In this document: positions 15,301-18,707 of the stretch, piece after piece | How the letters are laid out: the number at the start of each line of letters is the position of its first letter | How positions within the stretch are numbered: the stretch's first letter is position 1 | NCBI GenBank assembly: GCA_027013295.1 | Contig: JALUXP010000117.1 | Coordinates: forward strand, 1 to 33,785 | DNA length: 33,785 nt | From: Sulfurimonas sp. | GTDB lineage: Bacteria; Campylobacterota; Campylobacteria; Campylobacterales; Sulfurimonadaceae | Direction of reading: 5' to 3' | Made by a program: the position numbers and the translations under genes | Notes under the pieces: model-generated | Databases searched by the model: none | Seen by the model: only the letters and a program-made list of their open reading frames with translations | What the model was told of the DNA's origin: nothing

Positions 15301-15376
15301 GTTATAATGTCATAAAAAATGCACAACTTTAATTTGTAGGATTTATATTCTTTTCAAAATATAAAGCCCATTAAAT

Positions 15377-15382
15377 TATAAT
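15377..15382 (+). promoter_or_regulatory. Putative -10 box for proC
   Basis: TATAAT 24 bp before the preferred proC ATG. Two more TATAAT boxes occur at 15295-15300 and 15303-15308, so the gene may have tandem promoters in the gap after amiA. Confidence 0.4.
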
Positions 15383-15405
15383 TGTGTAGATGTAAATGGA
15401 AAACA

Positions 15406-16175: not shown

Positions 16176-17063
16176 TTGTTAAAAAATTTAGACCGAGGCA
16201 TACTTTTTATGCTCCTTAGTGCCCTCATCTCTGCTTTTAATGGTGCTATAGCAAAAATACTTTCCGATGATATGAGTGCTTTGGAGATTGTATTTTTTAG
16301 AAATATTATTGGTATAGGGCTTATACTTTATGCTCTCAAACTCAAACCACCCAGCCTACTAGGTGGCAAATTCCATCTACTTTTTATGCGTGGTTTATTT
16401 GGTTTTATAGCTATGATATTGTTCTTTTATACGATTACTGTGATACCTTTAGGCGAAGCGATAACACTCAATAAAACCTCCCCTTTATTTGTATCTATCT
16501 TAGCATTTTATCTACTTGGAGAGCATCTTAGTAAGCGAACGATACTCGCTCTGCTCGTTGGGTTAGGTGGTATCATACTCATCACTAAACCCTTTGGTAT
16601 GAGCATCTCTTATGAGCATCTCTTAGGGATACTCGGAGGATTCTTCGCTGCTCTTGCTTATGCAACCATCAAAAAGATCAAGGAGATCTATGACTCTCGC
16701 ATTATTGTTTTATCTTTTGTAGTGATAGGGACTATTATTCCAGCTATTTTATTTAGTATATCGCCTTATCTAAGCATTTCCCCATCATTAGAATTTTTAT
16801 TTCCAGAATTTATACTACCACTTACTTCCAAACTTTGGTTGCTCATAGTGTTCATGGCTATTATCTCAACTCTTTCACAATGGTTACTCACAAAAGCATA
16901 TTCAGCTTCAAAAGCGAGTATCATCGGTGTGATTAGCTATACAAACATACCCTTTGCTATAGGCTTTGGTTTTTTACTTGGAGATAAATTTCCAGATTTT
17001 TGGACTTTTTGTGGGATAGGACTGATAGTCCTAGGTGGAGTGTTGGTTAGTAAGGCGAAGTAG
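16176..17063 (+). CDS. EamA-family (DMT superfamily) membrane transporter
   Basis: A 295-residue integral membrane protein with about ten hydrophobic segments arranged as two EamA repeats of five; each ends in the typical GGIILITKPFG or GLIVLGGVLVSKAK pattern. Such permeases export or import small metabolites; the substrate cannot be read from sequence. The frame starts at a TTG (16176) with no clear ribosome binding site; an ATG at 16209 would shorten the first membrane helix, so the TTG is preferred. It follows proC by 11 bp and is probably co-transcribed. It converges on thrC. Confidence 0.82.
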   Translation: MLKNLDRGILFMLLSALISAFNGAIAKILSDDMSALEIVFFRNIIGIGLILYALKLKPPSLLGGKFHLLFMRGLFGFIAMILFFYTITVIPLGEAITLNKTSPLFVSILAFYLLGEHLSKRTILALLVGLGGIILITKPFGMSISYEHLLGILGGFFAALAYATIKKIKEIYDSRIIVLSFVVIGTIIPAILFSISPYLSISPSLEFLFPEFILPLTSKLWLLIVFMAIISTLSQWLLTKAYSASKASIIGVISYTNIPFAIGFGFLLGDKFPDFWTFCGIGLIVLGGVLVSKAK

Positions 17064-17067
17064 CTTA

Positions 17068-17233
17068 ACGAGCCAGTGTAGTTGGCTCATTCACTGTACT
17101 TTTACGGGGATCATTTTTTCTTTGAAAAAACGAACACCTCCAAAGTACGAGCCAGTGTAGTTGGCTCATTCACTGTACTTTTACGGGGATCATTTTTTCT
17201 TTGAAAAAACGAACACCTCCAAAGTACGAGCCA
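17068..17233. repeat. 79-bp palindromic unit in tandem (two copies plus 8 bp) between convergent genes
   Basis: Unit 17068-17146 is repeated without change at 17147-17225, and the first 8 bp (ACGAGCCA) recur at 17226-17233. Each copy contains a small hairpin, GAGCCA-7 nt-TGGCTC, and an imperfect 53-bp palindrome (17096-17148; 17175-17227). The palindrome's arms begin GTACTTT and end at TTTTTTC-TTT-GAAAAAA; 19 of 25 positions pair. The second copy is further enclosed by GTTGGCTC (17160-17167) and GAGCCAAC (17228-17235), the latter reaching the thrC stop codon. Confidence 0.9.
17175..17227. terminator. Probable bidirectional terminator of eamA and thrC (duplicated at 17096-17148)
   Basis: An imperfect palindrome whose apical stem is TTTTTTC-TTT-GAAAAAA, placed between two convergent genes. 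It would fold in RNA from either strand. It is not a textbook GC stem plus U-run, so termination is an inference from position and structure. Confidence 0.4.
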
Positions 17234-17234
17234 A

Positions 17235-18707
17235 CTAAAGAAACTTCAAGATCTCTTTGGATATATCTTTTTTATCTATGATGGTACTATGAACTATATC
17301 CTTGTTAAAGAGCTCTTTTATCATAAATGGTATGTCTAAATTTGCCTCTTTAGATATAGACTCTAATGCTATCATGTCTTGTGCATCTTCTTCACCTGTC
17401 AGGGCATTGGCAATAACTGGGGAAAATTTAGTCCATTCGGCTGTTGAGTAGGCGATAGTTTTAATACTAGGATCGCTGCATGTTTCATAAGATTTTAGGC
17501 ATGTGGCAGTATGAGGGTCCATAAGGTATGCATCTGCATCAAAAATCTCTTTAATATACTTTTTACCCTCATCCCCTGTACAAAAATCTGCATCGAAAAC
17601 CTCTCGCAAAGTATCGAGTTCCTCCAAAGTTAATTCATAAAATTGATTGACTTCAAGGTCATTCATCAACTCTCTTGTGCGAACATCACCAAACATGTCA
17701 AACAAAACTCTTTCAACATTAGATGATTTAAGTATATCCATAGCTGGGGAAGTTGTTCCCACTACTTCACAATCTCGTAAATCATATTTTCCAGTTTGAA
17801 TCAACTTTGTTAAAACATTATTTTCATTTGAAGAGATAATAATTTTTTCAACCGGCAAGCCCATTTTCCAAGCATAATACCCACCAAGAGCATTACCGAA
17901 ATTCCCACTTGGGACATTCAGATAGACTTTTTCTCTTTCTTCTATTGCACCTTGGCGTAGCAACTCTAAATAAGAGTGAATGTGATAAATGATTTGAAAA
18001 ATAATACGACCAAAATTGACTGAATTTGCGGCTGATAAAGAGGTGTTGTGCTCTTTTAATGAGCTCTTAAATTCTTCTGAAACTAGAAGCATCTTTAAAG
18101 CATTTTGAGCATCATCAAAAACGCCATGAATCCCTATTACTTTTAGATTATCAGCATCCTCTGTGACCATTTGTAAACGCTGAACATCACTTGTTCCACC
18201 ATCAGGGTACAGGCAAGCCACCTTGACATTAGGACGATTTTTAAATGTCTCCAATGCCGCTGGACCAGTATCGCCACTTGTAGCTGCAAGTATGAGATAG
18301 TTTTCATCTTTTTGCTGAGCAATAGAAGAGAGAACAACTCCAAAAGGTTGCAATGCCATATCTTTAAAAGCACGAGTTGGACCATGATAAAGTTCTGATA
18401 TATATAAGTTTTCTTTTATTTTGACAACAGGGACAGGATTGTTTGCATCATCAAAACTATCGTAAAGAGCTAATGCTTCATTGATCACTGCATCATCTAT
18501 ATCTATCTCAAATCTCTTTAACATATCGTAAGCTAATGTTTTATAATCGCTATGGAGGTGTTTTGCTAAGAACTCGTTACCAAGGTTAGGTAGTTCCTCT
18601 GGCACATAAAGTCCACCAAAAGAGGCGATTGGGCTTAATATAGCTTCTGAAAAAGTTACAGTTTTTTGTTTAGATTCATCTATTCCACGAGTTTGTATAA
18701 AGTTCAT
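17235..18707 (-). CDS. thrC: Threonine synthase
   Basis: A 490-residue PLP enzyme converting O-phosphohomoserine to threonine. The N-terminal MNFIQTRG and GGLYVPEELP are typical of the long E. coli/yeast-type ThrC. The PLP lysine is Lys115 in HGPTRAFKDMALQ, followed by AATSGDTGPAALE (phosphate-binding loop) and VPSGNFGNALGGYYAWKMG. Length fits the family. AAGGAA lies shortly before the ATG, and a TATAAT box lies 40 bp upstream. It stands alone, convergent with the EamA gene. Confidence 0.96.
   Translation of the reverse strand: MNFIQTRGIDESKQKTVTFSEAILSPIASFGGLYVPEELPNLGNEFLAKHLHSDYKTLAYDMLKRFEIDIDDAVINEALALYDSFDDANNPVPVVKIKENLYISELYHGPTRAFKDMALQPFGVVLSSIAQQKDENYLILAATSGDTGPAALETFKNRPNVKVACLYPDGGTSDVQRLQMVTEDADNLKVIGIHGVFDDAQNALKMLLVSEEFKSSLKEHNTSLSAANSVNFGRIIFQIIYHIHSYLELLRQGAIEEREKVYLNVPSGNFGNALGGYYAWKMGLPVEKIIISSNENNVLTKLIQTGKYDLRDCEVVGTTSPAMDILKSSNVERVLFDMFGDVRTRELMNDLEVNQFYELTLEELDTLREVFDADFCTGDEGKKYIKEIFDADAYLMDPHTATCLKSYETCSDPSIKTIAYSTAEWTKFSPVIANALTGEEDAQDMIALESISKEANLDIPFMIKELFNKDIVHSTIIDKKDISKEILKFL

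Follow-up and report, generated by a model that had tools for sequence, protein, structure and literature searches.

A tandem hairpin pair between eamA and thrC belongs to a dispersed Sulfurimonas family with covarying stems

The 79-bp unit repeated in tandem between eamA and thrC is a member of a dispersed, clade-limited Sulfurimonas family of hairpins of ~65–88 bp. The family comprises two subfamilies, termed type 1, which includes this unit, and type 2, its larger sister. The stems of both covary: their arms change together, and their bulges stay constant. Here we describe the array, the family and its hosts, the sites it occupies, and the explanations that may account for it.

The array at the eamA–thrC junction

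We analyzed a stretch of 33,785 nucleotides (the window) from a draft Sulfurimonas genome of 2.06 Mb in 134 contigs. Positions 17068–17233 consist of 79 bp repeated exactly twice (17068–17146 and 17147–17225) plus 8 bp. Tandem Repeats Finder gave a period of 79, 2.1 copies, 100% matches and a score of 332, the top of nine rows in the window, and the exact self-match in the array is 87 bp, which corresponds to the 8-bp overhang. The sequence ACGAGCCA is present three times, at 17068–17075, 17147–17154 and 17226–17233. The junction is convergent, as eamA (+) ends at 17063 and thrC (–) at 17235. An exact tandem duplication at a convergent junction had been claimed in an earlier note made from the sequence alone, and the analysis bears this out; the exact identity of both copies fits the recent origin proposed there. 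The features are as follows, with the names of the two flanking genes as in the earlier note.

16176..17063, + strand: eamA-like transporter gene, left neighbour
17068..17146, + strand: first tandem unit, 79 bp, an exact repeat; its type-1 hairpin lies at 17081–17156, with the outermost right arm missing
17147..17225, + strand: second tandem unit, 79 bp, with the same sequence as the first
17154..17241, + strand: complete type-1 element (model R2 positions 1–88, 85.2 bits); outer stem TAGTTGGCTC/GAGCCAACTA, 7-nt 5' bulge ATTCACT, stem GTACTTT/AAAGTAC, internal loop, apical stem TTTTTTC/GAAAAAA
17226..17233, + strand: 8-bp overhang, in which the direct repeat ACGAGCCA recurs for the third time; likely the homology used in slippage
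17235..17237, – strand: thrC stop codon TAG, base of the outer stem
17235..18707, – strand: thrC (threonine synthase), right neighbour
15320..15396, – strand: probable type-1 element in decay, located in the proC leader 11 nt past a TATAAT and absent from sister species G123

Of the two copies, only the second is complete, being closed by TAGTTGGCTC..GAGCCAACTA with the thrC stop TAG at the stem base. We also recovered, from sequence and fold, the inner 53-bp palindrome capped by TTTTTTC-TTT-GAAAAAA and the outer 76-bp palindrome GTTGGCTC/GAGCCAAC (17160–17235) that reaches the thrC stop, both as first noted. Folded as DNA, the 88-nt unit has z-scores of –5.3 (+) and –6.1 (–), and none of 200 shuffles was equally good. 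The array region also folds well as RNA.

Two subfamilies, their shape and their hosts

A DNA search of the source genome revealed a second tandem pair, on contig C30, with a period of 89, an exact self-match of 113 bp and a 24-bp overhang. It likewise lies at a convergent junction, between genes that we take, from their protein sequences, to be murB and an outer-membrane-like gene. (The names murB, purB, nrdA, carB, proC, rpsP and kdsA are all our assignments of this kind.) Relatives of the unit, sought genome-wide, are dispersed across genomes of the genus. Two single relatives in genome G051 were aligned with the source copies. In this four-row alignment, stem pairs that keep standard pairing change on both sides, never on one, and one cell is unpaired.

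Covariance models extended the family (counts refer to 135 same-genus genomes). Model R1, for type 1, matched 16 of the 135 at E up to 0.1, and model R2, built from 37 sequences, matched 18 at E up to 0.05. Two genomes matched by R2, G135 and G036, carry the second subfamily only; type 2 was discovered via weak R2 matches. Model R3, for type 2, matched 21 genomes at E up to 0.01, namely all 16 type-1 genomes plus G135, G036, G025, G008 and G134. The source genome has nine R3 matches and G051 the most, 22, a number that includes some type-1 elements and opposite-strand repeats. The shared hosts of the two types may reflect a clade effect as well as a common factor.

For the alignments, 23 of 77 rows of set A3 were removed (the weak proC row and 22 rows that were partial or duplicated on the reverse strand) and 54 kept. 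From these 54 we chose the 37 elements of A4, excluding tandem duplicates, poorly aligning elements and type-2-like ones.

Both subfamilies share one layout: an outer stem, a one-sided 5' bulge, a second stem, an internal loop, a bulged T and an A+T apical stem. Type 1 is up to 88 bp long and type 2 ~65–75 bp (their models have 88 and 74 positions). The type-1 pattern is AAGTAC-N-outer stem-(7-nt bulge, WTTYAYT-like)-GTAATTT-(loop)-GGGC-N-CA-A+T stem-loop-..-GC-T-CC-(loop)-AAATTAC-outer stem-N'-GCAAA. The type-2 consensus is close to CAGAGTAAATC-TTTT-CTTT-TCCGGC-T-AAACATTT..AAATGTTT-GC-T-CGTC-AAAG-AGATTTACACTA. By eye on the alignments, the end tags are KTAC..GCA for type 1 and CAGAG..CACTA for type 2. 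An A–C mismatch at the type-1 end is retained in 26 of 37 elements.

Covariation is extensive. For type 1 (A4), 26 of 32 pairs show double changes, in 175 cells versus 46 after a shuffle that ignores relatedness, and most of the signal was gone when the pairing partners were slid. For type 2 (A7), 23 of 26 pairs show double changes, in 189 cells versus 42 shuffled; this count used 57 distinct rows, three opposite-strand ones among them, and leans towards the model's structure, to which A7 was fitted.

The host range appears narrow. A phylum draw of 397 genomes, same-genus ones included, gave six matching genomes, all of the same genus, in a scan that is insensitive because only 11 candidates were scored per genome. 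A core-pattern search of named records returned six stretches, all from Sulfurimonas or Sulfurimonadaceae MAGs. Among phages there was one weak, chance-like match only; plasmids gave no match to the element, and one core pattern had no exact match in IMG/VR. Blast matches at twelve loci (L005–L007, L009–L015, L017 and L018) looked, on inspection by eye, like short chance or coding similarity and were excluded.

The family is apparently uncatalogued and undescribed so far, and the open-access literature searched holds no report of it. The names Sulfurimonas, Thiomicrospira, Helicobacter and Campylobacter did not turn up in a term search of PMC2267715. In PMC12306157, palindromes of Sulfurimonas gotlandica are counted as a table row, and the passage concerned names no family.

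Occupied and empty sites, and their position at genes

Relatives of thrC occur in 121 of the 135 genomes. Source genome aside, a single element lies at the thrC end in G142 and G051, and none is seen in the other 27 of 30 thrC loci read by eye. Together with many other loci that hold single elements, this makes it probable that the ancestral form was one palindrome of ~76 bp, as the earlier note had supposed. Its idea of an unstable locus likewise fits what we found: the copy number is two in the source genome, one in each of G142 and G051, and zero in sister species G123. The last is the closest relative (thrC 93% identical over 417 columns). There the element is missing, the genes overlap convergently, the thrC C-terminus is different and the frame runs into eamA (L119:250–400). 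This points to loss at the site, probably by deletion.

Other pairs of close species also differ. The proC-leader element spans 77 bp in the source genome versus 1 in G123 by eye, at a gap that the alignment program did not place there; BLAST pieces gave 79 bp versus 4. This element is weak, with E values of 0.115, 0.0098 and 0.02 and a DNA fold z-score of –2.2, eight of 200 shuffles being equally good. Two type-2 sites differ between G030 and G047 (91 bp versus 11, and 94 versus 10). These two genomes are a close pair, with 86–96% DNA identity in the stretches compared, and are well suited to tracing where elements of either subfamily have come or gone. By eye, target-site duplication was not evident at proC, at the two G030/G047 sites or at eamA–thrC, the flanks at these sites being ~88–96% identical; this is a weak test for a MITE, because each of the differences other than that at eamA–thrC may be a gain or a loss. 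None of the compared sites demonstrates gain, which counts against mobility.

The purB site is occupied in G047, G030, G002, G015, G164 and G051, and half elements or remnants were seen there by eye in G030, G015 and G173. In G105 the site is empty; the purB genes of G105 and G047 share 98% identity. With the C30 junction as DNA query, six of seven genomes matched, partly through the elements themselves, and murB neighbours were retrieved; no clear empty site appeared among the seven, and G123 gave no match.

A thrC tree, which is not a species tree, was built with 69 rows from 70 loci (G020 was dropped, its protein not having been recovered). Carriers were defined as the 18 R2-matching genomes, 16 of them in the tree; G025, later found to have type 2, was scored as a non-carrier. 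Carriers cluster (8 changes versus 14.6 shuffled), and G000, G123, G142, G051 and G151 group together (98). The tree, in which thrC splits into two deep groups, conflicts with purB similarity, and two thrC matches were obtained in each of G107 and G142. The deep groups and double matches suggest transfer, duplication or mixed assemblies.

Tandem arrays are found elsewhere in the family. G123 has two 80-bp units that are 96% identical (contig C116), G135 has three near-identical 74-bp units and one partial (C46), and G051 has two units whose apical stems differ (C117). Diverged neighbouring copies occur at purB in G030 and G051. At the start of the eamA–thrC (C117), C30 and G135 arrays stands an incomplete right end of the element (8, 24 and roughly 23 bp, respectively), as slippage or unequal exchange between short direct repeats would be expected to leave.

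Elements are located after stop codons, in leaders or between successive genes. Among 50 elements (46 type 1, 4 type 2), a stop codon lies –4 to +12 nt from the outer stem in 21 cases in minus sense versus 3 in plus sense. The independent number is smaller, as several are the same locus across species; by our count, it is ~10 loci versus one or two. A gene start lies just downstream in 15 of the 50 rows, in both orientations, and the best –10 hexamer precedes the 8-bp stem by 15–17 nt in 7 of these 15 leader-type elements. For type 2, 25 of 54 elements are followed at 13–21 nt by a plus-sense start codon; a minus-sense start within ~80 nt is seen in 8 of 54. Orientation to genes is thus non-random, as expected of a function in mRNA, which counts against a DNA element.

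Several observations were made on individual sites. In G051, the intergenic region preceding carB has two type-1 elements that face opposite ways (C204; L076:1685–1906); at this site, G107 and G173 have the first element only and G142 the second only. In the source genome, murB ends in an element-like stretch (L019:1938–1978). The purB C-terminus is ..RVFAKNS or ..RVFGKN, versus ..RVFK in many relatives (L204, L205, L207).

Nature of the element and relation to known repeats

If one transcribed strand were under selection, G–U should outnumber A–C. We counted 21 G–T and 28 A–C among 1172 cells for type 1, and 23 and 25 among 1352 for type 2 (54 rows, three reverse and three identical rows having been removed). 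In a control of 33 distinct tRNAs from loci of same-genus genomes, 58 of 702 pairs were G–T, ~8% versus ~2% in the elements; only ARAGORN-drawn pairs were counted there, so the A–C count of 0 is perhaps by construction. The low G–T share relative to tRNAs suggests a DNA hairpin. Counting against this, 11 leader elements of A4, read in mRNA sense, have G–U over A–C by 10 to 3; for 19 stop-type elements, the ratio is 5 to 7.

On balance, we think it probable that the array arose by tandem duplication of a single REP/BOX-like, non-autonomous element that is recognised as a DNA hairpin. Some enzyme would recognise the single-stranded form, as the fixed one-sided bulge, the end tags and the few wobble pairs suggest, perhaps in the manner proposed for Y1 transposases acting on REPs. 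At eamA–thrC, replication slippage or unequal exchange between the direct repeats ACGAGCCA flanking the hairpin would have doubled the 79-bp unit, presumably after the split from the G142 lineage.

The strongest competing account is a structured RNA at mRNA borders: a transcribed hairpin, bound by a protein or RNase, would set stability, processing or translation, and selection would keep each site. The oriented placement beside stop and start codons, the spacing from the –10 hexamer and the G–U excess in leaders all speak for it, as do the compensatory changes, which keep the shape even among same-site copies such as those at thrC. That elements share sites in well separated species (purB, thrC, carB) also counts against a mobile element. 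Yet G–T is not in excess of A–C overall, nor in stop-type elements; close species differ in presence and absence; and in the leader of the MGIPQ.. gene the element points one way in G002 and G107 (plus sense) and the other way in G015 and G051 (minus sense). Rfam gave no gathering-score match in the whole window, a result that argues only against an RNA already catalogued. (At lower scores, the array was hit by two microRNA models, with E of 0.11 and 0.28; in a scan of eight loci, microRNA models hit other repeats in L056 and none of the elements.) We regard an RNA hairpin as a serious but unlikely explanation, and a DNA hairpin as more likely, though not proven.

The remaining accounts fare worse. 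A neutral quasi-palindrome, in which template switching between arms maintains complementarity without selection and slippage duplicates the unit, would produce double changes with few one-sided intermediates, as observed, and could leave the half elements and remnants seen at purB. However, correction between arms should erase the one-sided bulge, the A–C end mismatch and the internal loop, all of which are conserved at many loci, making this account improbable. An assembly artefact, a single copy doubled by the assembler, is suggested by the fragmented draft and by exact copies at two loci; but the overlap at eamA–thrC is merely 8 bp, G135 has three units, and in other genomes (G123 and G051) the tandem copies are not identical to one another, so we consider it very improbable. 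Hardly credible at all is a bidirectional terminator serving eamA and thrC. The junction is convergent and the hairpin strong on both strands, but no T tract follows the stem, and members also occur in 5' leaders and between co-directional genes. The earlier note had named a terminator among its possibilities; an ordinary Rho-independent one was rejected too: there is no G+C stem with a T run, the T run being inside the stem, and no terminator-like site was found in 16900–17400.

Returning to the DNA hairpin, a broader picture can be drawn: a two-subfamily system of shape-conserved hairpins that would move as single strands, in set orientation at gene borders, one enzyme serving both subfamilies. 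A common enzyme is proposed because all 16 type-1 genomes also carry type 2. We offer this as a speculative extension that is rather doubtful as it stands. If true, the system would represent a class of small mobile hairpins in which selection acts on DNA shape, not on sequence. To our knowledge, small palindromic repeats are common in bacteria, and their mode of spread has been settled for few. The present family offers two covarying subfamilies, presence/absence pairs in close species, tandem arrays and a strict gene-border position, making testable whether selection acts on a DNA or an RNA hairpin and which enzyme, if any, moves the element. It also shows small elements rewriting gene ends, namely the stop codons and C-termini of thrC, purB and murB.

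The earlier suggestion of a REP/MITE-type element holds insofar as the family is dispersed, intergenic, palindromic and present or missing between close species; judged by four sites and by the Y1 genes, it does not extend to a classical MITE, nor does it extend to a GTAG/CGTC REP as described. Like REPs and BIMEs, the Sulfurimonas elements are dispersed extragenic palindromes with conserved short end tags, often in dimers or clusters. They agree with the general definition of REPs given in a passage of PMC12306157 (extragenic, palindromic, short and repeated, i.e. mutually similar with several copies per genome), except for its length of ~14–50 nt. The part of PMC3733652 that deals with the GTAG and CGTC families gives 20–40 bp, as against 88 and 74 model positions here, and describes head-to-tail dimers as scarce, whereas Sulfurimonas copies are direct head-to-tail. 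Moreover, our elements have neither GTAG nor CGTC at the hairpin foot, and their arms vary by compensatory change. Palindromic CGTC..GACG repeats resembling CGTC REPs were seen separately, at L056:1047–1237 (G114:C39), where one pair 98 bp apart is 97% identical, and at L079 beside thrC (G142:C35).

An association with Y1 transposases (RAYTs) is unsupported in current genomes. PF01797 had no match in the source genome or in five carriers (G105, G030, G047, G107 and G113), and none of the 12 Y1 loci fetched contained an element. The domain occurs in 72 of 135 genus genomes, and other carriers (e.g. G051, G142 and G151) have Y1 genes. A parent insertion sequence was not found in a search limited to Y1 genes.

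BOX elements, according to the relevant passage of PMC3049150, have tandem boxB modules and vary in length, and our family is likewise a structured repeat with a variable number of tandem modules. BOX is a boxA–boxB–boxC composite, whereas the Sulfurimonas tandem unit is the whole hairpin. With ERIC and other MITEs the elements have in common that they are palindromic, near genes and non-coding. ERIC is ~127 bp and is said to duplicate TA, whereas the Sulfurimonas elements show no evident target-site duplication. For MITEs, effects on mRNA via RNase III and RNase E are covered in part of a review (PMC10969869). The hairpin also recalls the attC site in its one-sided unpaired bases, although by eye no cassette arrays were noticed around the Sulfurimonas elements. 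Integron attC sites work as single strands of DNA in folded form, with some bases left unpaired on one side.
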